Assembly: GCF_020966775.1 (NCBI RefSeq)
Contig: NZ_JAJKFV010000010.1
Location: 1-64,000, forward strand
DNA from: Rhodopirellula halodulae
GTDB lineage: Bacteria > Planctomycetota > Planctomycetia > Pirellulales > Pirellulaceae
Length of the DNA stretch: 64,000 bases
Reading direction: 5' to 3'
Shown: positions 32,694 to 44,980 of the stretch, one piece after another
Position numbering within the stretch: position 1 is the first letter of the stretch
How the letters are laid out: every line of letters starts with the position of its first letter
The notes under the pieces: model-generated
The model's input: the letters and a program-made list of their open reading frames with translations, nothing else
Told to the model about the DNA's origin: nothing
Databases searched by the model: none
Translations under genes and position numbers: made by a program

Positions 32694-34196
32694 TCAGTCC
32701 GTGGGTTGATCCCACAATCGATAGGGATCGTCCCATGATTGCATTTGGTGTAGCAGCAACGCTTCCATCTCTTTTCTTTTCTCCGCGAAGGCTTCGTTCT
32801 CCGCCAAATCAGTCTCCCATTCTGATTCACGGTGATGTTCGGGAAGGTACTCCAGCGGATTGGCCGCCAGATTGAACAACTGCGTTTCGCGGACGGAACC
32901 GTCGAGAACGTCGTACTTGATCAGTTTCCAATCGCCCTGTTTGACGCATCGCATTCCCGGTTTCGTCCCGCCGCAGTAAATACCAAACAAGACATCACGC
33001 AGAGTTTCTTGCTTGCCCTCAATCACGGGTCGAAGTGATCGACCTTCCAAGGTGGACGGTGCCTCAATGCCAGCCAAATCCACCAACGTCGGCAGCAAGT
33101 CCATCAGGTAGAGATTTCCGAGGGCTCGCTTGCCCGTTGGGATCGATGGTCCGGACAAGACAAATGGGACACGCCAAGTGTGTTCGTAGAGATTCTGTTT
33201 GCCTTGCAACCCATGGCGTCCAATCGCCATTCCATGGTCGGAGGTGTAAACAACATAGGTGTTTTGTAGTTCACCCATTTCTTCCAGTCGATTCAGAACC
33301 TTCCCGATTTGGATGTCGATGTTTTCACTGCAAGCGAATTCTCGACCGAGTTCATTGCGAATGGTGCGTTCGTCGCGACGCTCCCAAACGCCGCTGACGG
33401 CCACTTCGTCACGAAGATTCGGATGCCCGTGGTGAAACGGATGAGCGTCCAAGTGGTTTGGTGGAAGCGGAGGCTGCTTCGAATTTGCTGGTGGCAGTGA
33501 GTTCTTTTCCTTGTGGTTGATGGCGCCGTACTTGGCCAGTAGTTCCGGAGTTCCATCCCGTGTGTCGTGCGGATGCGAGAATCCGAAATAGATCAGGAAG
33601 GGATCGCGATCGGCTGCGGATTCACGCTGATTCAGATAATCCAGCACTTGTTTTCCGTGCCATGCACTGCCCGTTTCTTCGGTGCCGCCGCGTTTTGTCG
33701 CGTCGCGAACGACGGTGAATTGCTTGTTGGCGTCGGGGTAACTGTTTCCTTTCTTGCAGGTTCGCATTGTGTCGTAGCCAGCACGATTGAAGACGGCTGC
33801 CATCGAAAACTCGGGCAAATTCGCGGGAGCGAGTTCCGTGTCCGGGTAACGCACGCTCTTGTTTTGTTTCTTTGGATTTTTGGGCCGACGTTGCGGGATA
33901 TGCCACACGGATCGCCCGGTCATGATCATGTGGCGAGATGGCGTGCAAACGGCACCAGACCATGCTCCCATGTGGTGGGCTCCATCGAACACCATGCCCG
34001 ATGCGGCCAGGCGATCAATGTTGGGTGTGTCCAGCGGCGAGTCCGGGTTGTAGATTCTCAGGTCCAGCGGCGATTGGTCATCAACAACAATGACCAGAAA
34101 GTTAGGACGCTTCGACGGCGTATCGGTCGCTTTCGCGAAAGAGGACGCCAGCAGCGAAGTGGCGAGCAATCCAAGTAGGAGTTTGCGTGAAAGCAT
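32694..34196 (-). CDS. Sulfatase (formylglycine type)
   Basis: The 500-aa exported enzyme (signal peptide about 1-22) belongs to the arylsulfatase superfamily. VIVVDDQ supplies the metal-binding aspartates. VCTPSRHMIMTGR carries the C-x-P-x-R motif whose cysteine is oxidised to formylglycine. HPHDTRDGTPE, TSDHGMAIGRHG and LEGRSLRPVI follow as expected. It probably removes sulfate esters from an algal or marine polysaccharide; the substrate cannot be read from the sequence. A second sulfatase lies 63 bases upstream on the same strand, so they may share a transcript. Confidence 0.93.
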   Translation of the reverse strand: MLSRKLLLGLLATSLLASSFAKATDTPSKRPNFLVIVVDDQSPLDLRIYNPDSPLDTPNIDRLAASGMVFDGAHHMGAWSGAVCTPSRHMIMTGRSVWHIPQRRPKNPKKQNKSVRYPDTELAPANLPEFSMAAVFNRAGYDTMRTCKKGNSYPDANKQFTVVRDATKRGGTEETGSAWHGKQVLDYLNQRESAADRDPFLIYFGFSHPHDTRDGTPELLAKYGAINHKEKNSLPPANSKQPPLPPNHLDAHPFHHGHPNLRDEVAVSGVWERRDERTIRNELGREFACSENIDIQIGKVLNRLEEMGELQNTYVVYTSDHGMAIGRHGLQGKQNLYEHTWRVPFVLSGPSIPTGKRALGNLYLMDLLPTLVDLAGIEAPSTLEGRSLRPVIEGKQETLRDVLFGIYCGGTKPGMRCVKQGDWKLIKYDVLDGSVRETQLFNLAANPLEYLPEHHRESEWETDLAENEAFAEKRKEMEALLLHQMQSWDDPYRLWDQPTD

Positions 34197-34259
34197 TGAA
34201 TGGATTCCGTGAGGTGGGATGACGGATGGTGGGGAGTCAAGGTTGAGACGAGGCTTTGT

Positions 34260-35927
34260 TCAGTGCACGCCTTCGTCGTATTCCGCGGGGGTGATCCAGG
34301 TCAGGTCGTTCCAGTGCCCCGTGTCGTTGGGCTGAGTCTCGCCCGGCGTGGAACGTCCGCGGAGAACGATTTCAGTCAATGAATGCTGAAGTTGTTCGAC
34401 CAAGGAAGCGTTCTCGGCAAGGACATTGTTCGATTCGGATAGATCGCGGCCCAAATGATAGAGCTCGCCCGGTTGGTCGCTTGCCGGTTTATCGCGTGCC
34501 CGGGGAGCGATCCATTTCCAATCGCCTTTTGTGATCGCGAATTCGCCTTTGATACCATGATTCACCAGCGGAACACGAACGTGTTGGTGCTCGGCGTCCG
34601 TCAAAATTTTCGCGAAGCTTTGGCTGTCTTCGCCCGCATTGTCTGGAATGGTTGCGCCCACTAACTCGGCGACGGTCGCGAGCAAATCGACTTGTCCCAC
34701 CAAGGCATCGCTGACTCGACCGGGGCGATCAACTCCAGCGGGCCAACGCACTAGCATGGGCACCCGGTGTCCACCTTCGTAGATGTCTCGCTTGCCACCA
34801 CGCAGTGGACCGTTGCTGTGATGTCCGAATTCTTCAATGCGTTGTTTCCATGATTTTTCAGGCCCGTTGTCACTGGTTAGGACGACCACCGTGTTTTCAC
34901 TCAGGCCATGTTGGTCGAGAAACGCAAGCAGCCGCCCCACGTGATGATCCGTTTCGGTCATGAACTCGCCATAGCCACCACATTCGCCTTGTCCCCAAAA
35001 CTCCGGCAAAGGACACACGGGATAATGGGGCGAAGTGAGCGGCAAATAAAGAAAGAACGGCTGTTGAGTCTCGTTCGGTTCGTTTGCGGTCACGTCTGAG
35101 CTAACGTTGCCGATCCAATCCATCGCTTCATCGGTGAATCGAGTCAGACACTGGTTATCGACAAAGTCTTCCGCGACTTCGATCGTGGTGTTTCTGAACT
35201 TTTGGCGGGCTTGTTGTTGCGTTTCCAAATACGGCGGACGGATGCGATAGTCGACGTGCCGCTTGTTGGGCTTTTTGCCACTCCACATGGTCGGCGGAAC
35301 CTTCGCGTGTCGACCGTCAAACCAAGCGAGCACACCGTAGTTCAACGATGCGGGTATACCAAAGAAATGGTCGAACCCTTTGTCGAGCGGCATGTCGCGA
35401 ATGGGTTGCGTCCAGTCACGATCGTTTGGCGGGCCGGGGAATTGCATCCCCAAGTGCCATTTGCCAACCATCCCGGTGCGATAACCCTGGTCACGAAGCA
35501 GGCTGGCCAAGGTCATTCGCCCGTCTTCGATCAAGCATTCACCTTCGGCCACCATCACACCGCGTTTGAGTCGTGTTCGCCAACTGTAGCGTCCGGTCAG
35601 TAGGCCATACCGTGAGGGCGTGCAAACCGCATCGCTGCTGTGCGCGTTGGTGAAGGCAATGCCTTCCTTGGCCAAACGGTCCATATTGGGAGTGGCGAAT
35701 TTTGCATCGGGATTGAAGCATCCCACGTCGCCGAAGCCTTGGTCGTCGGTGTAGATGACGACAATGTTGGGACGCTGCAGTTTCGGCTTTTTGCCCGGTT
35801 CGGACGCACCACATGATCCAACGCCGATGGTTCCAAACAGCAGTCCGAGCAGCACTGTAAAAGCGTACCGAAGTGGACTTCGGCAGCGGCCGAAACGTGA
35901 CGGGAGGCGGGGGGCAATAAACGACAT
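34260..35927 (-). CDS. Arylsulfatase-type sulfatase
   Basis: The 555-aa product has a long hydrophobic N-terminus (FTVLLGLLFGTIGVGSCGA, possibly a lipoprotein signal). Then comes NIVVIYTDDQGFGDVGCFNP with the paired metal-binding Asp, and VCTPSRYGLLTGRYSWR with the formylglycine motif. GYRTGMVGKWHLG and LTSDNGPEKSW are typical of arylsulfatase A/B-like enzymes of planctomycetes. It is probably secreted and desulfates a polysaccharide or small aryl ester. It precedes the other sulfatase on the same strand. Confidence 0.94.
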   Translation of the reverse strand: MSFIAPRLPSRFGRCRSPLRYAFTVLLGLLFGTIGVGSCGASEPGKKPKLQRPNIVVIYTDDQGFGDVGCFNPDAKFATPNMDRLAKEGIAFTNAHSSDAVCTPSRYGLLTGRYSWRTRLKRGVMVAEGECLIEDGRMTLASLLRDQGYRTGMVGKWHLGMQFPGPPNDRDWTQPIRDMPLDKGFDHFFGIPASLNYGVLAWFDGRHAKVPPTMWSGKKPNKRHVDYRIRPPYLETQQQARQKFRNTTIEVAEDFVDNQCLTRFTDEAMDWIGNVSSDVTANEPNETQQPFFLYLPLTSPHYPVCPLPEFWGQGECGGYGEFMTETDHHVGRLLAFLDQHGLSENTVVVLTSDNGPEKSWKQRIEEFGHHSNGPLRGGKRDIYEGGHRVPMLVRWPAGVDRPGRVSDALVGQVDLLATVAELVGATIPDNAGEDSQSFAKILTDAEHQHVRVPLVNHGIKGEFAITKGDWKWIAPRARDKPASDQPGELYHLGRDLSESNNVLAENASLVEQLQHSLTEIVLRGRSTPGETQPNDTGHWNDLTWITPAEYDEGVH

Positions 35928-36031: not shown

Positions 36032-38095
36032 TCAAGGCGTTTGAGGCTGAAGCCGTTCCGCGCGTTGAAAGTATCGGTCCGCTTCGGCTTGATTGCCCAA
36101 GGCACCATGCATCGCACCCATGTTGTAGGTGGCACTCAGATGGTTGGGAACTTGCTCAAGTACTTTCTCAAAGTATTCGATGGCGATCTTGGGTTGTTCC
36201 TGGTTGGCAGCGATCACGCCTAGGTTGTGCAAAGCACTGACGTCATCGGGCGATTCATGCAAGATGGCTTTCCAAGCAAGTGTCGATTCCTGCCAACGCT
36301 GATCGGACATCAGCACTCGGGCGAGGTTGGTTTTGTATTCCAGTCGCTCGGGATCCAATTGAATGGCTGTTTGGAATAGCTCGATAGCCTCGTCCACTCG
36401 GCCTTGGGCGGATCGCAGGGTCGCCAAATTGGCGTACGAGTTGGCGTGATTGGGATCGATCTCGATGGCTTGTTGAAGCGAAGCCTCAGACGATTCCAAG
36501 TCGCCCATCATTCCCTGAGTGGCACCCAATCCATTGAAGGCTTCAGCGAGGTTCGGATTGACCTCGGTGGCTTCTTGGTACAACGCGAGGGCTTCTTCCA
36601 AATCGCCCAGGTTCTGACGTGCTTGAGCCAAGTTGATCAGCGAGTCGGCAAAGTTGGGTTTGATCTCGATTGATCGGCGGAGGTGCGTTTCCGCTTCCAA
36701 GTAGTCTCCTCGACGATTTAGCAGAGCACCCAAGTTATTATGGGCGAGAAATGAATTTGGGTTCTTGTCCAAGGTGTCTCGCCAAAGAATCTCCAGCCCG
36801 CTGTAGATCGTGGATTGGCTGAAGGTGGTCGTGGCCAATAGCAACACTGCGCCAACAGAGACCATGATGGGAAGGAAACGGCCGATGCCAAAGGCCTCTT
36901 CATCGTCGTCGTCGTCACGCTGCAACCAAGTCGCGACCACGGAAACGATCAGTGCGATCAGCGGAACACTGGCCATGTAAGCAAAGTGGTCCGCGACAAA
37001 CGAGAAACGCATGGGGTAGACGTCGAAGAATCCTAGTGCAGGAAATAGCGTTCCGGCGTACAGGAACACAGCGGCGGCGGGGCCACGTCCCAACCGATCT
37101 CGATAGGCAAACAACGCGATCATGACCGCGAACGCCGCAATCGGAAAAGCATTCTGCCACCAAATGCTGGAGTCAATTTCCCAGCGAGGATAGGTGAAGA
37201 TCAGCTCAGCAGGCCAAACGATTTTGCCGGCGTAGAACCACAGTGCGCGTCCCGCGATGAGAACTCGTTCCCAGGGGCTAAGTTCCCAATCAATGCCGCT
37301 GGCCCCGACCTGATTTTTCTCTAACCAAACGGTCAACAATCCAAGACTGATTCCGATCACAAAGAACGGAATCAGAGGCAGGATATCGCTTCGCCGGATG
37401 GTTCCTCGCTTCCACCAAATCATGACCAGCAATGCGGCGGGAAGCGTCGACGCGACGGTCTTGCTGAACAATGCCGCGACGAAGCAAAACGATGCCAAGA
37501 CATACCATCGCCGCGAACGATTCAAACCATCGGACTCTACCCGTGTGAAATCGCGAAAGTTCAACCAGCAAAGAATCGTCAGCAGGCTAAAAAGTCCAGA
37601 CAGAACATTTTTGCGTTCGGTGATCCAAGCGACCGACTCAACATGCATGGGATGGACCGCGAACAGCAACGCTGCAACGTAAGCTCCGGGAATCGATAAC
37701 TTCGACAACAATCGCCACAGCAACAATGCACTGACGCAATGAACGATGATGTTGACCAAGTGGTAACCCATGGGGTTCAAACCCCAGAGATGGTTTTCGA
37801 TCCAAAACGTGCTGTGGACGATCGGGTAGTACTGCGGCGTCGCCGAGGGATTGGTCCAAATAGCGACCAGACCATCCAATGAATTCAACGTTGGGTTCTC
37901 GGTGACGTAGTCATCGTCGTCCCAGATGAATCCGCCTTGGATCGCGGGCAGGTAGGCCAGCATGGTGATCGCGATGAGTGCCAACCCGAGCAAGACTGAG
38001 TGCAAACGTTTGGTTGGTGCCGATTCCGTTTGTTGCGTTTCAGCGTTGCCGTCGGTGTCGCTGTCAGTGGTTGGCTGTGCCGAGGTTTCGCTCAT
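36032..38095 (-). CDS. TMTC-like membrane protein with C-terminal TPR repeats
   Basis: The 687-aa product has a Ser/Thr/Glu-rich start, then about ten membrane helices to residue ~410, then around eight TPRs (LAHNNLGALLNRRGDYLEAE, YANLATLRSAQGRVDEAIELF and others). The first outer loop has FIWDDDDYVTEN, matching the acidic motif of GT-C protein-mannosyltransferase-like proteins of the TMTC type. A glycosyl transfer role at the membrane is possible but unproven. The start lies in an ATGA overlap with the second Mn/Fe permease gene, so it is the last gene of the long operon, although no functional link to metal transport is obvious. Confidence 0.85.
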   Translation of the reverse strand: MSETSAQPTTDSDTDGNAETQQTESAPTKRLHSVLLGLALIAITMLAYLPAIQGGFIWDDDDYVTENPTLNSLDGLVAIWTNPSATPQYYPIVHSTFWIENHLWGLNPMGYHLVNIIVHCVSALLLWRLLSKLSIPGAYVAALLFAVHPMHVESVAWITERKNVLSGLFSLLTILCWLNFRDFTRVESDGLNRSRRWYVLASFCFVAALFSKTVASTLPAALLVMIWWKRGTIRRSDILPLIPFFVIGISLGLLTVWLEKNQVGASGIDWELSPWERVLIAGRALWFYAGKIVWPAELIFTYPRWEIDSSIWWQNAFPIAAFAVMIALFAYRDRLGRGPAAAVFLYAGTLFPALGFFDVYPMRFSFVADHFAYMASVPLIALIVSVVATWLQRDDDDDEEAFGIGRFLPIMVSVGAVLLLATTTFSQSTIYSGLEILWRDTLDKNPNSFLAHNNLGALLNRRGDYLEAETHLRRSIEIKPNFADSLINLAQARQNLGDLEEALALYQEATEVNPNLAEAFNGLGATQGMMGDLESSEASLQQAIEIDPNHANSYANLATLRSAQGRVDEAIELFQTAIQLDPERLEYKTNLARVLMSDQRWQESTLAWKAILHESPDDVSALHNLGVIAANQEQPKIAIEYFEKVLEQVPNHLSATYNMGAMHGALGNQAEADRYFQRAERLQPQTP

Positions 38096-39510
38096 GGTTG
38101 CGGGTCATTGGCCGAAGGAATGGGGCTTCCGTGAGGGTCTTTGTCCGGAGAATCCGTTTGGACGTCCAGTCGATCTTGCAATTGCCGGTCGGTGAAGTGC
38201 TCCAAGCGGTGGGCTTGTTGGTGAATTCGATCGCCTTCCAAATCGACGCGCGTGACCAAGTATTGTTCCCAAAGTCGGTGGGATCGAACCAGCGATTCGG
38301 CTTCGGACCGACCGAGTTCGGTGAGCGTCGGGACGAGGGTGGCTGATTCGTTGTCGCGACCGTCCATCACTCGCCGACGCCAAACATGGAATTTCAGCGC
38401 AAGCGAAATCGCGAATCGTTTGGTCAACAAGATGTCAGCCATCCAAGCGTTCAGGTCCTCACGCATTGCCATGGATTCCGCGAGCGGGCGTTCTTCCGTG
38501 GACCGTTCTTCCATTCGATAGAGCAGGGCCAGAACATCGTCCGTCAAAATGGTCCAACGTAGCCATTGCTTGCGAGTCCACTGTGGGATCAAGCCTCGCT
38601 TGGGCGAGAACAGGACGGCCAACGTGAAGGCGGCTCCCGTGGCAACCGCCATCATTCCGGCGGTGGTTGTGCTGCGGAAGCCAAACCAGGTGGGAACTTC
38701 TACCGCAGCGATGTGACCGGCCCAAGCGGAGACCGCGCCGATCACGCACGCCAATCCAATCATCATTCCCAAGCGGTCGGTGAGCAGGTAAGCCGTCGCG
38801 GCGGGGACCACCAGCATCGCAACCACCAGGATGTTGCCAACGCTTTCGAAGCAAGCCACCGCGGTGACGGCGACCAACGTCATCAAGACGTAGTGGATGA
38901 CCTTCGCCGAAAAACCGCTGGAGGTGGCGAGTTCCGCGTCGAAGGTTGCCATCTTGAGTTCTTTGAAGAACAACAACACGAACGCCGCGTTGATCAGCGT
39001 CACGATGGATAGCACGACGACCACGCGTGGAACCCGCACCGAAGCCAAACCGGGCAGCGAAATCGTCCATCGGTCAAGCGGCGTCGATTCAATGGCGCCG
39101 TAGAGCACGCAGCCTGGATCCAGGTCCACGCGATCCGCGGCAAGCACGATCATGATCAATCCCGCGGCAAAGAGCGTCGTGAACACCACTCCCATCGAGG
39201 CGCCTTCGTCAACTTCACCCCGAACGTGAATCCAATCGGACAACAACGCTGTGAGCACGCCGACGATTACCGCGCCCAAGAACATCCATCCACTGCTGCG
39301 AGTGCCCGAGATCAAAAATGCGGCTGCCAGGCCGGGCAACACAGCGTGGCTGATGGCATCGCCCAGCAAACTCATTCGGCGCAAGACCAGGAAGCAACCC
39401 AGCAGCGAAGAAGAGACTGCGCAGAGCATGCCGGCCACAACGATCCAGCCATCCAGTTGCCAGCTCCAATCCACCGACCAGTCGAATCCGCTTTGTGCCG
39501 GAGGAATCAT
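38092..39510 (-). CDS. Metal (Mn/Fe/Zn) ABC transporter permease with C-terminal DtxR-like domain
   Basis: The first ~285 residues of this 472-aa protein are a ZnuB/MntB-type permease with 8-9 helices; LGCFLVLRRMSLLGDAISHAVLPG is the family signature. The following ~180 residues are soluble. They contain TLTELGRSEAESLVRSHRLWEQYL and HQQAHRLEHF, which matches the dimerisation and metal-binding region of DtxR/MntR repressors (HxxAC-xxEH in DtxR, with His in place of Cys here). The fused domain suggests metal sensing on the cytosolic face. Coupled at both ends by ATGA overlaps to the other permease and to the TMTC-like gene. Confidence 0.9.
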   Translation of the reverse strand: MIPPAQSGFDWSVDWSWQLDGWIVVAGMLCAVSSSLLGCFLVLRRMSLLGDAISHAVLPGLAAAFLISGTRSSGWMFLGAVIVGVLTALLSDWIHVRGEVDEGASMGVVFTTLFAAGLIMIVLAADRVDLDPGCVLYGAIESTPLDRWTISLPGLASVRVPRVVVVLSIVTLINAAFVLLFFKELKMATFDAELATSSGFSAKVIHYVLMTLVAVTAVACFESVGNILVVAMLVVPAATAYLLTDRLGMMIGLACVIGAVSAWAGHIAAVEVPTWFGFRSTTTAGMMAVATGAAFTLAVLFSPKRGLIPQWTRKQWLRWTILTDDVLALLYRMEERSTEERPLAESMAMREDLNAWMADILLTKRFAISLALKFHVWRRRVMDGRDNESATLVPTLTELGRSEAESLVRSHRLWEQYLVTRVDLEGDRIHQQAHRLEHFTDRQLQDRLDVQTDSPDKDPHGSPIPSANDPQP

Positions 39511-40841
39511 GAGGGGACTCCTTCGGCAGACTTTGCATGAGGGTCCGTTGGCATCCGGCGTTCGCCAAGTTCCGCGTTCAGCAGCGACTCCAACTCCGCA
39601 ACCGTTTCTGGATCCAAGACGTGTTCAATCGCATCCGCGTCCCGGTCCACCCGTTGAGGAGCGATGTCGGCGTGGTGGATCAAGTAGAGTTCCCACAATC
39701 GGTGTCGCCGGGTCAAACGTCTGGCTTCGGTTTCACCGCGTTCCGTCAATGCGAACTCCATCTTGGTGATGTTTTCGCTGATCCAACCGTCCTTGGACGC
39801 ATGTTCCAAAATGCGTCGCAAGCGTTTCTTGGACCAACTGCGAGCTTGCAGCAATTCTTCCCAGGAAACAGCCAGCCTCTGTGGATCATTCTCAAACAGT
39901 TCATACAATTCGCGCAGAAGGTGTTGGCGATCGATGCTGGCGTTGAGCGATTGACGTCGCCAGATCCGAATCAGTAAGCCGCGCCGTGCGCCGACAAAGA
40001 AGCTGACTAGAAAACCAAGCCCCGTGGCCAGCACGATCATCGCTCCGCTGGGCAATCGCGGCAGCATGGCGCTGGCGGCGGCTCCCACCAGACACCCCGT
40101 CATGCCGATCAGTGACGAAAGCACGATCATCCAAATCAGCCGGTCCGTCCAAAAACGAGCCGAGGCGGCGGGAATGACCAGCAACGCGATGACGAGCACC
40201 AATCCAACCGCCTGCAGTCCCACGATCGTGATCACCACCACGACGGTCATCAATCCGGCGTCCAGCAAGACCACGGGATAGCCGCGCGATCCCGCGAAAG
40301 CTTCATCGAAGCACAGCAGTTTGAATTCTTTGAACAAACCCAAGCAGATCACCACGCACAACAACGATGCGCCGCCGATCAACCAAGCATCGCTGGAGAC
40401 CATCGAGGCCGTTTTGCCGTAGATGAACGATTCCAAGCCGGCTTTGTTGCCGTTTTTCATCTGTTGGGCGATGCCCAGCAATTCCAAACCCAACCCAAAG
40501 AAAACGCTGAGGACGATTCCGAGTGCTGCGTCCTCTTTGATCCGAGTGCCACGCCGAATGATCAGGATGGAAGCGATACCAAACAGCCCTGAAATCGTGG
40601 CGCCCAACAACAGGACCGGCAACGATCGACCGTTGCCTCCCATTGCCGTCACCCACAAGAAAGCGATTGCGATCCCGGGCAGTGCCGCGTGCGCGAGGGC
40701 GTCTCCGACCAGGGCACGTCGACGCAGCAACGTGAAGCACCCCACCAAGCCAGCGGCGAACCCAAGCATCGCGGCGCCCAGGATCACCACGCGAGTGTTG
40801 TGATCCTGCAGGCTGATCACACGCCACAGTTGCTCGCCCAT
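39507..40841 (-). CDS. Metal ABC transporter permease with winged-helix and DtxR-like domain
   Basis: The 444-aa product has the permease part at about 1-290, with LVGCFTLLRRRALVGDALAHAALPG as signature. The soluble tail (about 300-444) begins with a winged-helix-like segment (SWEELLQARSWSKKRLRRIL) and continues with FALTERGETEARRLTRRHRLWELYL, then DADAIEHVLD, as in DtxR domain 2. The Cys of the DtxR metal site is absent, but the EH pair is kept. Together with the next permease it would form the heterodimeric membrane channel. TGATG coupling to the ATPase upstream and ATGA to the second permease. Confidence 0.9.
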   Translation of the reverse strand: MGEQLWRVISLQDHNTRVVILGAAMLGFAAGLVGCFTLLRRRALVGDALAHAALPGIAIAFLWVTAMGGNGRSLPVLLLGATISGLFGIASILIIRRGTRIKEDAALGIVLSVFFGLGLELLGIAQQMKNGNKAGLESFIYGKTASMVSSDAWLIGGASLLCVVICLGLFKEFKLLCFDEAFAGSRGYPVVLLDAGLMTVVVVITIVGLQAVGLVLVIALLVIPAASARFWTDRLIWMIVLSSLIGMTGCLVGAAASAMLPRLPSGAMIVLATGLGFLVSFFVGARRGLLIRIWRRQSLNASIDRQHLLRELYELFENDPQRLAVSWEELLQARSWSKKRLRRILEHASKDGWISENITKMEFALTERGETEARRLTRRHRLWELYLIHHADIAPQRVDRDADAIEHVLDPETVAELESLLNAELGERRMPTDPHAKSAEGVPS

Positions 40842-41698
40842 CAGATCGAACGTTCCCGCCGACGCATCGCTTCGGTGGCCTCGTCCAGCAACGTCAAGCG
40901 GCCACCATAGGTTTTTTGCAGGTTTTCACTGGTGAACACGTCTTCCGTTTTGCCGGCAGCAACGACTCTCATGTTCAGAAGCACGACGTAGTCGAAGTAG
41001 TCCGGCACGGATTGCAAATCGTGATGGATGACCACCGCCGTTTTTCCATCGGCCCGCATCTGACGAAGCAAGTCGATGATGGCTGCTTCCGTTGCCGCAT
41101 CCACCGCGGCCAGAGGTTCGTCCATCAAATACAGGTCCGCGTCTTGGACGAGCGCGCGCGCCAGGAATGTGCGTTGTTGCTGTCCGCCAGAAAGCTGGCT
41201 GATCTGTCGGTTGGCCAAATCAGCAATGCCGACCCGTGCCAGCGCATCGCGTGCGATGTCGCGATGTTTCTTTCGCACCGGCATGCACCAACCCAAACGG
41301 CGATACAGTCCCATCGTCACCACATCGAGAGCATCGACAGGGAAGTCCCAATCAACACTTTCACGTTGCGGGACGTAACCAACACGTCCGCGTGATTTGG
41401 CGTAGGGCTCGCCAAAGACTTCGACACGACCGGACGCTCGTGGGATCAAGTCCATGACGGCTTTGAGCAGGGTGCTTTTGCCCGCGCCATTGGGTCCGAC
41501 AATGCCCACCAAATTTCCGGCGGGGATTTCCAACTCCACGTCCCAAATCACCGGTTTACGGTGATAGGCAACGGTTAGATCATCCACCTTCAACGCGATG
41601 GAATCCGGCTGCGTTTGGGCTGCGGAACGATTGTCCGAGATGGGGGCGTCTGCAATTAGTTCGTCTGCGGCGGGACCGGAGGGGGTGACGGAGTTCAT
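40841..41698 (-). CDS. Metal ABC transporter ATP-binding protein
   Basis: The 285-aa ATPase has Walker A GPNGAGKST, the Q-loop in YVPQRESVDWDFP, which is typical of Mn/Zn/Fe (ZnuC/MntA/TroB) ATPases, the signature LSGGQQQR, Walker B LYLMDEP and the H-loop VIHHDLQ. About 30 residues before the nucleotide-binding domain are an extension without known role. It powers import of a divalent metal through the two permeases encoded next. The binding-protein gene lies 29 bases upstream. Confidence 0.95.
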   Translation of the reverse strand: MNSVTPSGPAADELIADAPISDNRSAAQTQPDSIALKVDDLTVAYHRKPVIWDVELEIPAGNLVGIVGPNGAGKSTLLKAVMDLIPRASGRVEVFGEPYAKSRGRVGYVPQRESVDWDFPVDALDVVTMGLYRRLGWCMPVRKKHRDIARDALARVGIADLANRQISQLSGGQQQRTFLARALVQDADLYLMDEPLAAVDAATEAAIIDLLRQMRADGKTAVVIHHDLQSVPDYFDYVVLLNMRVVAAGKTEDVFTSENLQKTYGGRLTLLDEATEAMRRRERSI

Positions 41699-41727
41699 GG
41701 AAGAGATGGATGAGTCAGTGAACCGGG

Positions 41728-42771
41728 TCAGTCGTTGTTCGACGTGGAATGTGTCGACGCTTCCATGCTGAGTTTGCCACGCAGGCCCCGCTCGGGAGCC
41801 TCACCGCCCAAGGCACGGGTGATCGTGGTCACATTGTGATCAATCATGCCTGGATAGGTACCTTCGTAAGTGTCTGCATCGCCCGCGGAATCCGAAAACA
41901 GCTCGCCCCCGATGACGACTTCGTGCCCACGAGATTTGGCGCCCGCGATCAAGGCTTGGATGCTTTTGCCGTTGACGCTGGTTTCGACGAAGACGGCGGG
42001 GACCTTTTTCTCAATGATCAAATCCACCAACTGATTGATGCGCTGCAGACCCGCTTCGGAGTCCGTTGAGATTCCCTGCACTCCCATGACTTCGATGTCA
42101 TAGGCTCGGCCCAAGTATCCAAACGCGTCATGTGACGTGATCAGGATGCGTTGTTCTTCCGGGATCGTGGCGAGCGTCGCTTTTGCGTCCTTTGCCAGTT
42201 GCTCAAGGTCCGCTTGATACTGTTTCGCGTTTTGCTGGAACTCGGTTTTCTGGGCGGGCAGTTCCTTCGAAAGCACTTGAGCGACTTCGTCGGCGGTGGT
42301 CGCCCAAAGCTCGACGTCGAACCAAACATGCGGGTCAGGGTGGCCGGTTTGCTCCGTGCCGGACAGAAGCTTGCTTGAATCCACTCCATCGGTGATCGCG
42401 TGAACCGGTTTGGGGGCACCCAGCGATCCATCGCCGACCTTCGCCAAGGTGTCCGTCATCTTCCCTTCGAGCATCAAACCCGAATAGAACACCACGTCGG
42501 CATCGACAATCAGCCTCACATCGTCCGTAACGACTTTGTACAAGTGCGGGTCCACGCCGGGGCCTAGCAAGACTTGAACTTCGATGTTGTCGCCACCAAC
42601 GGCTTTCACCACGTCCCCGACCATGGTGGTGGTGGCCAAGACTCTCAGCTTGCCCGTTTTGGGAGCTGGCTTGGGTTGAGTGCAGCCGATGACCGGCAAC
42701 AAAGCTATGACGACGCCTAAGTGGCCGATCCACGAGGCTGAAAAACGAAACGATGTTTGGGTTGGTGTCAT
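41728..42771 (-). CDS. Metal ABC transporter substrate-binding lipoprotein (TroA/MntC type)
   Basis: The ATG at 42771 overlaps the NUDIX stop (ATGA) and gives a lipoprotein signal with lipobox VIGC (Cys30); mature product about 318 aa. Metal ligands of cluster A-I proteins are visible: His in PGVDPHLYK, His in PDPHVWFD, Glu in VFVETSV and Asp in GMIDHNV. The His-rich loop that marks zinc-specific ZnuA proteins is missing, so Mn2+ or Fe2+ is more likely than Zn2+. The linker helix between lobes is present, so the domain is complete. Confidence 0.93.
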   Translation of the reverse strand: MTPTQTSFRFSASWIGHLGVVIALLPVIGCTQPKPAPKTGKLRVLATTTMVGDVVKAVGGDNIEVQVLLGPGVDPHLYKVVTDDVRLIVDADVVFYSGLMLEGKMTDTLAKVGDGSLGAPKPVHAITDGVDSSKLLSGTEQTGHPDPHVWFDVELWATTADEVAQVLSKELPAQKTEFQQNAKQYQADLEQLAKDAKATLATIPEEQRILITSHDAFGYLGRAYDIEVMGVQGISTDSEAGLQRINQLVDLIIEKKVPAVFVETSVNGKSIQALIAGAKSRGHEVVIGGELFSDSAGDADTYEGTYPGMIDHNVTTITRALGGEAPERGLRGKLSMEASTHSTSNND

Positions 42772-43580
42772 GAATGGTTGGATTTGCGCTCGCGAAGCCA
42801 CTGTTCGACGGCGATGCGGTTGGATGGAAACGCCATGTTGTTGAGTTCACGTTTGGTGGGAACACACCATCGGTAATCGCTCAGTTCGGTCGGTTCGAGT
42901 TCGACTGAGTCCTCGTTTTCCACTTGGCAAACAAAGAACAGATCCACGACGTCGGCGGTGACGCCTTGGTAGGTGTAGTGATTGGGTCCCGTGGTCAGAA
43001 GCCGCATGCTCGCAATGGTCAACTGAGTTTCTTCGGTGACCTCGCGACGCAGTGCGTCCTCGATCGATTCTCCTCGATCAACGAATCCTCCCGGAAGTCC
43101 CCACTGGCCTCTTCCTGGATCACGAGCCCGCCGTACCAGCAGCAATTCTTGGTCCTGGTTGACGATCAAACCTCCGACCGCCGCGACGGGACCGAAGAAA
43201 AAAGCGAACCCGCATTGCTCACAGCGAAACGGAATCGTTCCCGGAGACTGATTGGGTGCCTGACAAGAAGGACAGAATCGAAAAGCGTCTTCGATTGCTT
43301 CTTCGGATGCGGGACGAGGTGTGGATCGAGAACGAACACCTTTCGCGGTCGATTTGCGAACGGATTTTTTAGCGGCCTTTCGTGATGTGGTCGATTTGCG
43401 TGCGTGCGGGGAAACCGAGGATTGCTTCGCGGATTTTTTGGCTGACTTTTTGGTGGACTTTTTTCCGCTCTTCTTGACCGACTTTCGCTGGGACTTGGTT
43501 TTGGTTTGGGTGTTGGCGGACGCCTTGCGAGACTTCTTGGAAGACTTGCGAACGGTGGAGACGCTCGATTTCTTTTTCAT
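42768..43580 (-). CDS. NUDIX hydrolase with histone-H1-like N-terminal tail and zinc ribbon
   Basis: The first ~90 residues of the 270-aa product are Lys/Ser/Thr/Ala repeats (KKSGKKSTKKSAKKS), like histone H1-type tails. A four-Cys ribbon follows (CPSCQAP ... CEQCGF), then the NUDIX domain with GLPGGFVDRGESIEDALRRE plus VTEET, a full Nudix box. The ribbon-NUDIX part resembles NudC/NADH-pyrophosphatase-like proteins, so cleavage of a nucleoside-diphosphate derivative is likely. The tail would allow nucleic acid binding. The ATG at 43580 shares a base with the preceding stop (TGATG); a GTG lies 3 bases before. Confidence 0.85.
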   Translation of the reverse strand: MKKKSSVSTVRKSSKKSRKASANTQTKTKSQRKSVKKSGKKSTKKSAKKSAKQSSVSPHARKSTTSRKAAKKSVRKSTAKGVRSRSTPRPASEEAIEDAFRFCPSCQAPNQSPGTIPFRCEQCGFAFFFGPVAAVGGLIVNQDQELLLVRRARDPGRGQWGLPGGFVDRGESIEDALRREVTEETQLTIASMRLLTTGPNHYTYQGVTADVVDLFFVCQVENEDSVELEPTELSDYRWCVPTKRELNNMAFPSNRIAVEQWLRERKSNHS

Positions 43581-44980
43581 CACTGGTCCTCGCTTTCCGA
43601 CGCCGTGTCACTCGAAGTGGGCTCTTCGTTCATGGAGAAAGCCGTGATGGATTCGGTGTGGTAGTGAGCGGCTCGCAAAACGCCGGCCCCGCTCAGTCGC
43701 GAACCCAACGTGCGAAGCTCGTCTACCGAATGGATCACGCCCATGCCAAAGGATTCGATCACGTCGTCCTCCAATTGGCAGTGGACCAAGACATGACCGT
43801 CGGCGATCAATTGGTTCCATTGCCGTGCCAGTGGCGTCTCCGCATCCCAGGACCGGAAGGCGGTGTCTTGATCGAGCGAGGCTTCATTGCCGGGTTGGTC
43901 GTCAGAATCATCTTCGTTGCTTTCAATGCCCGTGATCCCCTGCCCCAACTCTCGCGACCAAACGGGATCCGGTGCGGCGGCCACTTCGGACCAGAGCACG
44001 ATTGTTCCGCCGGGGGTCACGTGACGTCCGGCCGCGATGGCAGCGCGTGCCAAGTTCACCCAAGTCTGCGAGGCCGCGTCACCGTCCAATGCGGCAACGA
44101 CCAAATCGGCCGTGGGGACGGTTTCACTGATGCTGGATTGGTCTTGATTGGGTGATTCGGCCGCGTCCCATGATTCCGCGTCGGCTGTTTCGCCACTGGC
44201 GTATAGGTTGGTCAATTCGTGTCGCAATGCGTCCGGCGTTCCGGCAACCAAACGCCCCAGTTCGCCAGCAGCATCGGCCGATGCCAACATCATGACTTGA
44301 ACGCCAAGCAACCAAGCGGCTTCAGATGGTTCCGTGGTCTTGCCCGTTTGATAGCGATGCTGGGTCGCCGCGTCAGCAAACAGCGGGAAGATCCCCGTCG
44401 GGTCAATGTTGTTAATCGCGTCGCGAGCCCGCGCGGACAAGATCGGCAAAGTGAAATCGGCGTCGACCAAGTCTTTGGCAATGTAGACCGCTTCGGCGTT
44501 CTCATCCGCCACGATGTACCGCAAACTTTCACGACGGTGTGGTTGATGCCGAACGACCTCGACGTTCAACGGCTTCAGTGTGTCGGTGTTGTTGGCGACA
44601 CCATCGAGTTCGTCTTCCAATTCTTTCGCGAACGCTTCGCTGGCTTCGCTCCACAGCACCACGCTGACTCGACCCGCATTGGCTCGCCCCAGTAAGTTCA
44701 GCACCCCTCTTAGAACGTCGTTCAAACGCGGGACGTTGGGATCCACCGCCAACGCCACGTGATCCCCTGGAACGATCGCTTCCACGATCGTCGGAAAGTC
44801 AGCCGGAGTCTGCAGCATCGTTGTGGCCAGCTGCGCGATCGCTTCTGGGGAATCGTTAACGGGCTGCGACCGGGCGGAAAACGAGCCTGCCACCGCGGCG
44901 GGACGCAATTCCCACAATTCACCTTCCACCGCTCCGCGATACTGTTGGGCCGAAACGACAGGCAGAGAAACACGCTTCAT
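43580..44980 (-). CDS. LarA-like (DUF2088) protein
   Basis: The 466-aa product contains IVPGDHVALAVDPNVPRLNDVLRGVL (about 68-95), matching the start of DUF2088/LarA, the apoprotein of nickel-pincer lactate racemase. The next strand VSVVLWSEASEAF replaces the usual AxGxHR segment, and RHQPH occurs later. The catalytic histidine and lysine pattern of LarA is not clear, so racemase activity is uncertain. No larB/larC/larE genes are nearby. It is the first gene of the operon that continues with the NUDIX and metal-transport genes. Large acidic insertions (about 270-285 and 345-370) are unusual. Confidence 0.65.
   Translation of the reverse strand: MKRVSLPVVSAQQYRGAVEGELWELRPAAVAGSFSARSQPVNDSPEAIAQLATTMLQTPADFPTIVEAIVPGDHVALAVDPNVPRLNDVLRGVLNLLGRANAGRVSVVLWSEASEAFAKELEDELDGVANNTDTLKPLNVEVVRHQPHRRESLRYIVADENAEAVYIAKDLVDADFTLPILSARARDAINNIDPTGIFPLFADAATQHRYQTGKTTEPSEAAWLLGVQVMMLASADAAGELGRLVAGTPDALRHELTNLYASGETADAESWDAAESPNQDQSSISETVPTADLVVAALDGDAASQTWVNLARAAIAAGRHVTPGGTIVLWSEVAAAPDPVWSRELGQGITGIESNEDDSDDQPGNEASLDQDTAFRSWDAETPLARQWNQLIADGHVLVHCQLEDDVIESFGMGVIHSVDELRTLGSRLSGAGVLRAAHYHTESITAFSMNEEPTSSDTASESEDQ

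Follow-up and report, generated by a model that had tools for sequence, protein, structure and literature searches.

Why would both permeases of a bacterial metal importer end in a domain that resembles a metal-dependent repressor? This question is raised by a gene cluster of Rhodopirellula halodulae (GCF_020966775.1, contig NZ_JAJKFV010000010.1), which lies within positions 1-64,000 of the forward strand, the whole stretch of DNA that was analysed and that we refer to as the window. The cluster encodes a predicted ATP-binding cassette (ABC) importer with a binding protein (component A), an ATPase (component B) and two permeases (C and D), and each permease is extended at its C-terminus by a tail related to the DtxR/MntR family of regulators. 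Tentatively, and with somewhat less than even confidence, we read the tails as in-place metal sensors that limit import through this Tro/Ytg-type system.

An ABC-3 permease, a ZnuA/TroA-type binding protein and an ABC ATPase occur together in the cluster, which is the combination that marks importers of the Tro/Ytg/Psa type. The ABC-3 permease domain (PF00950) was reported in both permeases (150.5 and 196.6 bits), and the membrane domains of both carry a GDA-x-x-H motif. The best match of the binding protein in the PDB was TroA (1toa, 242 bits; the next protein scored 160), and its motif residues H76, H148, H214 and D294 aligned to the H, H, H and D of TroA. The ATPase (285 residues) matched ABC_tran and general P-loop families only in the Pfam scan; its best NCBIfam models were those of Mn and Mn/Fe importer ATPases, with scores below their cut-offs. 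Judged from its sequence, the core is a Tro/Ytg-type ABC importer of a divalent metal, for which manganese, iron or zinc are all possible substrates. An earlier note on this DNA had called the importer Mn/Fe-type; this restriction to manganese and iron is too narrow, as the TroA-like motifs leave zinc possible.

Each permease has about 150 further residues after its membrane domain. Here, Pfam recognized the metal-binding/dimerisation domain of the DtxR family alone (Fe_dep_repr_C, PF02742; curated cut-off 27 bits), spanning residues 397-465 of permease D (38116-38322, 76.7 bits) and residues 366-422 of permease C (39576-39746, 56.6 bits). At E <= 0.001, PF02742 was found in the own genome in these two tails and in one free-standing gene on another contig. 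The DNA-binding domain of the family (PF01325) gave no match in the window permeases C or D in the Pfam scan. As the tails recur in many related loci, the domain match is not due to chance.

Structure models of permease D (mc5c706113023) and permease C (m23e17eeec215) reached a mean predicted local distance difference test score (pLDDT) of 90.9 and 90.6, and in both a winged-helix fold is predicted to precede the metal-binding domain. In Foldseek searches, the membrane part of both models matched PsaC (7kyp; 28-31% identity, target template modelling (TM)-score 0.77-0.90). The D-tail model matched IdeR (7b1y) and DR2539 (8pvt) over about 144 columns with a target TM-score of about 0.8 and E of about 5e-5, and the C-tail model matched MntR over about 121 columns (target TM-score 0.72-0.77) at a weaker E of 0.007-0.05; the end of the C-tail model is also less certain (pLDDT 62-83, residues 381-440). 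The first tail helix (residues 307-339 in D and 289-318 in C) holds, according to the models, the first metal-ligand position (D325 and H307), and only a short turn parts it from the last membrane helix. Helix 1 of the putative sensor would therefore be anchored directly to the permease. These results uphold the claim of the earlier note that both permease C-termini match the metal-binding region of DtxR/MntR. The check it had proposed, by DtxR profiles and structure prediction, returned a DtxR two-domain fold, with a weaker structural match for the C-tail and with a winged helix that the note had left unmentioned.

Permeases C and D thus combine an ABC-3 permease with a DtxR-like C-terminal domain, as YtgCR-type fusions do, and their tails share with the DtxR/MntR family a metal-binding/dimerisation domain with conserved ligands. 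The sequence-conserved N-terminal winged helix of that family is missing and its fold alone is kept. A recognizable DtxR DNA-binding domain is missing as well, although this domain may not define the fusion family.

The retention of the metal ligands was followed through related loci, and for the ligand positions (H79, E83, H98, E105, H106) we assumed the numbering of DtxR. Tailed permeases were chosen through their metal-domain match, so all ligand counts are conditional on that match. Near-copies were thinned from 91 to 80 C-tails, from 84 to 75 D-tails, from 42 to 34 short and from 37 to 34 long free regulators, and L127, L141, L142 and L147 were set aside as near-copies at a further step; alignment A2 was made without L107, L136 and L150, and alignment A3 without L146 and L112, L116 and L125, which are three of the degenerate C-tails. 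All 75 non-redundant D-tails possess the equivalents of H79, E83, H98, E105 and H106, the first ligand position is D in 73 of them, and no D-tail of the aligned set is degenerate. The C-tails number 80, and H79 is conserved in 75 of them, E83 in 76, E105 in 75 and H106 in 73; all 80 carry D at position 98, and 61 have H at the first ligand position. This conservation across the fetched loci agrees with the DtxR-like character that the earlier note had ascribed to the tails.

The winged-helix half has followed a different course. Pfam found PF01325 in 1 of 54 tailed D and in none of 61 tailed C permeases, compared to 68 of 68 free regulators, a control that was picked by helix-1 pattern and therefore favours intact wings (tailed-permease fragments, the membrane-anchored L178/L201, which are one gene, and L204 were left out of it). 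At a metal-domain pair identity of 0.50-0.65, the median identity of the wing was 0.24 in D and 0.28 in C, as opposed to 0.54 and 0.40 in two kinds of free regulator; in 17 verrucomicrobial C-only tails, which are among those missed by PF01325, it was 32%. For four close species, the ratio of nonsynonymous to synonymous substitution rates (dN/dS) of wing and metal half was 0.140/0.047 in D, 0.044/0.021 in C and 0.019/0.070 in free MntR. As dS is near saturation, the raw proportions of nonsynonymous differences (pN) are the safer reading; these were 0.165/0.051, 0.076/0.026 and 0.035/0.083 in the same species, and 0.390/0.142, 0.130/0.070 and 0.120/0.174 in a second set of four. The pattern of constraint in the tails is the reverse of that in free MntR. 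Moreover, the wing varies between 43 and 92 residues in D and between 43 and 88 in C, compared to 54-55 in free short MntR, and the recognition-helix region of the D-tails is unconserved.

Many relatives have a candidate for transcriptional control apart from the tails. Of the double-tailed loci, 58 extend for 700 bases or more ahead of the binding-protein gene; in 26 of these, a separate DtxR/MntR gene adjoins the operon (21 upstream, 5 directly downstream; L141, L142, L145 and L147 are near-identical), and in L086 and L107 such a gene lies just outside the adjacency rule. Regions between divergent mntR and importer genes contain a recurrent inverted repeat, TTGTAGC-N4-GCTACAA: the word TGCTACAA occurred in 8 of 17 such regions, against maximum counts of 3-5 in 20 shuffles, and the core TAGC-N4-GCTA was present ahead of the operon in 19 of 92 loci, of which 14 are double-tailed, compared to 32 of 2360 random 500-base chunks. 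The free MntR of the own genome is a true member of the E. coli type (PRK11050; 176.9 bits, cut-off 153). In the genus, the free MntR gene (L181 in the own genome, C11:469000-477000; L182-L195) has copies of GTTAGC-N4-GCTAAC upstream in most congeners, a box that differs from the TTGTAGC-N4-GCTACAA form of the relatives. TTAGC-N4-GCTAA without mismatch occurs at only three sites of the own genome, one of them at the free MntR locus.

So far, a sensor function of the tails is best supported, because the ligands are retained, the DNA-binding half is eroded and a free regulator is present in many relatives. In the mechanism that we propose, a pair of DtxR-family domains at the C-terminus of each permease would lie in the cytoplasm and act as a metal sensor in place. 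When cytoplasmic metal is high, the metal would bridge tail helix 1 to the second domain of the tail, and the bridged tail may restrain the permeases and slow import, which would amount to substrate-dependent transinhibition. Where both are complete, the C- and D-tails may pair via their dimerisation surfaces, and transcription of many related operons would be left to a separate MntR-type repressor. The earlier note had suggested that a permease with its own sensor controls flux directly. The DtxR-like tails and their conserved ligands are in line with this, and of sensor and repressor, the two main readings, the sensor is the better supported; the functional steps, that is, binding of metal by the tails in vivo, their pairing and the inhibition of transport, are what we infer.

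Following the example of Chlamydia, permease-DtxR fusions have so far been read as possible latent repressors. The kept metal half, the eroded DNA half and the free MntR in many relatives argue that many of them sense metal at the transporter. We hold it conceivable, with slightly greater reserve than for the window system itself, that many fusions outside Chlamydia are transport-limiting sensors and not repressors, derived from a repressor family and attached to one or both membrane subunits of Tro-type importers, which have lost DNA recognition, kept metal binding in most of the fetched relatives and ceded transcription to free MntR. If correct, regulation of a metal importer would act via its membrane subunits, and the tails would be a clear example of how a transcription factor has become part of a transporter. 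MetNI and ModABC are alike in the proposed principle, as cytoplasmic substrate-sensing domains restrain these importers; in MetN and ModC, however, according to a review (PMC10710835), the sensor domains are of other folds and reside on the ATPase, whereas here the sensor-like domains are on the permeases and the Pfam scan of the window ATPase showed no regulatory domain. The text of that review does not mention DtxR or YtgC.

Several observations, among them this placement of the known sensors on the ATPase, weigh against a sensor function. A sample spread evenly over the phylum comprised 59 genomes (own included), and in 20 of them the match to a permease extended over the whole tail or the greater part of it; seven of these 20, with partial matches, were inspected for tail content. 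In five distant genomes (G050, G058, G065, G070 and G087; loci L224-L228), the tail of one permease is 83-92 residues long and consists of the wing half only, the partner permease having a complete tail with ligands and DPHG motif; in G051 and G071, metal ligands have been lost from both tails. Therefore, the metal half is not always kept, and tail pairing via this half is not general. In the fetched set, seven C-tails (L052, L053, L054, L077, L112, L116 and L125) have degenerate ligands as well. The recognition-helix region of the C-tails keeps an arginine in 70 of 80 and a tryptophan in 75 of 80, because of which this region appears not to be wholly free to drift, and the wing fold persists in the models despite the drift in sequence. 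On the sequences at hand, the wing half must have a use of its own. In the window operon, no MntR operator of the form TTGTAGC-N4-GCTACAA was found with up to three mismatches, and the genomes G014, G022 and G024 have no DtxR-domain match beyond the tailed permease. Finally, the closest studied relative, YtgCR, is described as a cleaved repressor.

Further searches of the window gave matches to TAGC-N4-GCTA with one mismatch at chance level and none to GTTAGC-N4-GCTAAC with up to two mismatches; the aligned region before the first gene contains a conserved block, in which no MntR-type palindrome was seen by eye. An all-or-none loss of the tail is rejected by the five wing-only tails and the two degenerate pairs of the phylum sample. 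The wing-only tails of L224-L228 carry an FGW or similar motif, and the 84-residue D-tail of L056, from the window's order, also looks wing-only.

In another reading, the tails would take over metal from the channel exit or hold the permeases and the ATPase together, with no feedback on transport. The models, in which the tail appears joined directly after the last membrane helix, are consistent with such a domain, and a wing fold without DNA-binding conservation, along with the wing-only tails, suggests that the wing makes contacts. A contact role alone, however, leaves the ligands that are invariant in 75 of 75 D-tails unexplained, and loci with a C-tail only (many of them verrucomicrobial) or a D-tail only (five) imply that two tails are unneeded for assembly. 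We regard this explanation as unlikely.

The chief rival is a latent repressor of the YtgCR type, in which the C-tail, and perhaps the D-tail, would be cut off to repress the operon in dependence on metal. The precedent comes from Chlamydia, where YtgR, once cut off from YtgC, acts as an iron-dependent repressor of the operon that encodes it, and permease-DtxR fusions have been reported in 11 phyla (PMC7755916, PMC6504234 and PMC5599777, including a review). The YtgABCD system of Chlamydia trachomatis resembles the window importer in having an ABC-3 permease with a C-terminal DtxR-like domain and a second permease D in the operon. It differs in that the repressor domain, in the operon as described, sits on YtgC, is cleaved and works, whereas the window importer has tails on both permeases, Pfam does not recognise their DNA-binding half and a free MntR is encoded elsewhere in the genome; YtgCR was compared by description only. 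The winged-helix fold that is kept, and the wing that one permease in five distant genomes retains instead of the metal half, would suit a repressor, as would the missing MntR box of the window operon and the lack of any other DtxR-domain match in G014, G022 and G024. In these three genomes the repressor reading is stronger, and the tail could still be the regulator. On the other hand, PF01325 was found in only 1 of 115 tailed permeases, the recognition-helix region of D is unconserved, constraint is reversed relative to free MntR, and free DtxR/MntR genes and boxes lie beside many of the same operons. Neither do the wing-only tails appear to fit, as a wing without the dimerisation half cannot be an ordinary dimeric DtxR repressor. 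Overall, we consider a latent repressor quite unlikely. Free tails made by internal initiation were also considered and rejected, as no Shine-Dalgarno-like start was present in the stretches examined (residues 286-330 of C and 301-345 of D).

The Chlamydia precedent had been missed by the earlier note. The kind of fusion is known; new are the double tail, which is recurrent, and the eroded DNA-binding half. In the literature searched, no paper was found that deals with fusions in planctomycetes or with importers in which both permeases are tailed.

Least probable, with MalK-MalT as its model, is a capture of the regulator, in which the tails would dimerise with free MntR and hold it at the membrane or release it by transport state: the metal/dimerisation half that is kept and the DNA-binding half that is lost in the fetched loci, and the free partner in many genomes, would fit, but the free regulators lie across a well-supported branch from the tails, G014, G022 and G024 have no free partner, and wing-only tails exist.

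This branch was obtained in a tree of the metal domain that was built from random samples of 22 C-tails, 22 D-tails, 7 of 8 tails of single permeases and free regulators of the short (14) and long (16) kind, after removal of L107_D, L137_Ms and nine C rows that were degenerate or broken. The C-, D- and single-permease tails split from all sampled free regulators with support of 99/99.9, and the C-tails formed one group (100/100). A grouping of the D-tails with the long free regulators was not rejected (p = 0.196 for this short domain). The sequences thus favour one old fusion as the origin of the tails; as the domain is short and the latter grouping is not rejected, such an origin is favoured rather than proven.

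Tailed C and D permeases occur together in loci whose titles name Planctomycetota, Spirochaetes, Latescibacterota and other groups; as these are metagenome bins, the titles can be wrong. Where the title names Verrucomicrobia, the tail is mostly confined to C. A tail on D alone is seen in five loci, and some genomes within the window's family and order encode one tailed permease only. A plasmid search with permease C returned 1207 records, all below 60% identity. In the single-permease importers of L058-L064 and L068, the tail is longer and comprises the DtxR-like domains and about 75 more residues, which received no Pfam name in the two proteins scanned; in G014 and G024, the tail of the single permease is the sole DtxR-domain match of the genome. 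In L065 and L067 (G018 and G025), and also in G057, the tailed permease D lies apart from A-B-C, so that C and D are at separate loci. Two further proteins, L201 4709-5731 (the same gene as L178) and L204 489-1538, have 340-349 amino acids with a hydrophobic N-terminal stretch and DtxR metal-binding and FeoA domains, and are apparently membrane-anchored DtxR-FeoA proteins.

The importer can also be set beside other known systems. As in Treponema TroABCD-TroR, whose TroA is closest to the binding protein, a DtxR-like regulator is encoded with the transporter; TroR is a separate gene (PMC2628430), whereas here the DtxR-like domains are inside the permeases. In the spirochaete locus L110, both permeases are tailed and a DtxR-like gene is encoded separately downstream. 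PsaBC of Streptococcus pneumoniae is alike in the membrane domains, which match PsaC; the matched chains have 258-290 residues, and the match covers the membrane part of C and D alone. With E. coli-type MntR (PRK11050), the tails have the metal-binding/dimerisation domain in common, but they score far below the MntR cut-offs (best C 26, best D 44 bits) and have no Pfam DNA-binding domain.

The features of the locus are compiled in Table 1. Seven open reading frames run from 44980 to 36032, all on the minus strand, with stop/start overlaps of 1 or 4 bases at every junction except that between binding protein and ATPase, where 29 bases (41699-41727) intervene; this listing bears out the seven minus-strand genes and the single non-overlapping junction of the earlier note. 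For the binding protein, an ATG at 42771 would, if used, give a 4-base overlap with the stop of the NUDIX gene; the listed GTG lies further upstream.

Table 1 Features of the importer locus of Rhodopirellula halodulae, in window positions
Feature	Position	Strand	Remarks
LarA-like protein, 466 amino acids	43583..44980	-	Neighbour outside the conserved unit; Lar_N match only via distant homologues
NUDIX hydrolase with lysine-rich N-terminal extension	42771..43580	-	Neighbour; PF00293, 88.2 bits
TroA-type metal-binding lipoprotein (component A)	41731..42771	-	PF01297, 257.6 bits
ABC ATPase (component B)	40844..41698	-	PF00005, 104.6 bits
Permease C, 443-444 amino acids, PsaC-like membrane domain and DtxR-like tail	39513..40841	-	PF00950 and PF02742
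C-tail, winged-helix part, residues 306-364, first ligand position H307	39750..39926	-	Unrecognised by PF01325
C-tail, metal-binding/dimerisation part, residues 365-435	39537..39749	-	PF02742, 56.6 bits; H380, E384, D399, D403, E406, H407
Permease D, 471-472 amino acids, PsaC-like membrane domain and DtxR-like tail	38098..39510	-	PF00950 and PF02742
D-tail, winged-helix part, residues 323-395, sequence eroded, first ligand D325	38326..38544	-	
D-tail, metal-binding/dimerisation part, residues 396-466	38113..38325	-	PF02742, 76.7 bits; H411, E415, H430, H434, E437, H438; DPHG motif 458-461
TMTC-like membrane protein with TPR repeats	36035..38095	-	Neighbour; TPR family matches

The conserved unit comprises four genes, those of the TroA-like binding protein, the ABC ATPase and the ABC-3 permeases C and D. 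The complete seven-gene order was found in 4 of 12 congeners (L034, L036, L037 and L038; in the congeners G007 and G012 the order cannot be judged, as contigs end) and was absent from the loci fetched outside the genus, many of which have the A-B-C-D core. Of the operon order whose recurrence in other Pirellulaceae the earlier note had asked about, it is thus the core that recurs. Of 40 genomes, the own one among them, 36 encode a relative of the LarA-like protein, in most cases not beside the transporter genes, and the linkage of this gene to the importer is confined to the genus; the NUDIX gene is linked to the importer only in a part of the genus, and the TMTC-like gene adjoins it in 5 of 12 congeners. 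A seven-gene module for metal homeostasis, which the LarA-like and NUDIX proteins had suggested to the earlier note, is therefore rejected: the linkage of the neighbours is local.

The LarA-like protein had no Pfam or NCBIfam match at E 0.01 / 0.001 and no significant match to PDB profiles, and a single chance match lay below the cut-off (E 0.16). Among three distant homologues, two, from two other genera, exceed the Lar_N cut-off and one falls slightly short of it, which points to distant kinship only with LarA. At the start of the NUDIX protein, about 90 residues form a histone-like stretch rich in lysine and serine (window 43310-43580). Beyond the operon, on the same strand, follow two genes that by eye are sulfatase-like (window 32694-35927), and homologues also trail the operon in close congeners.

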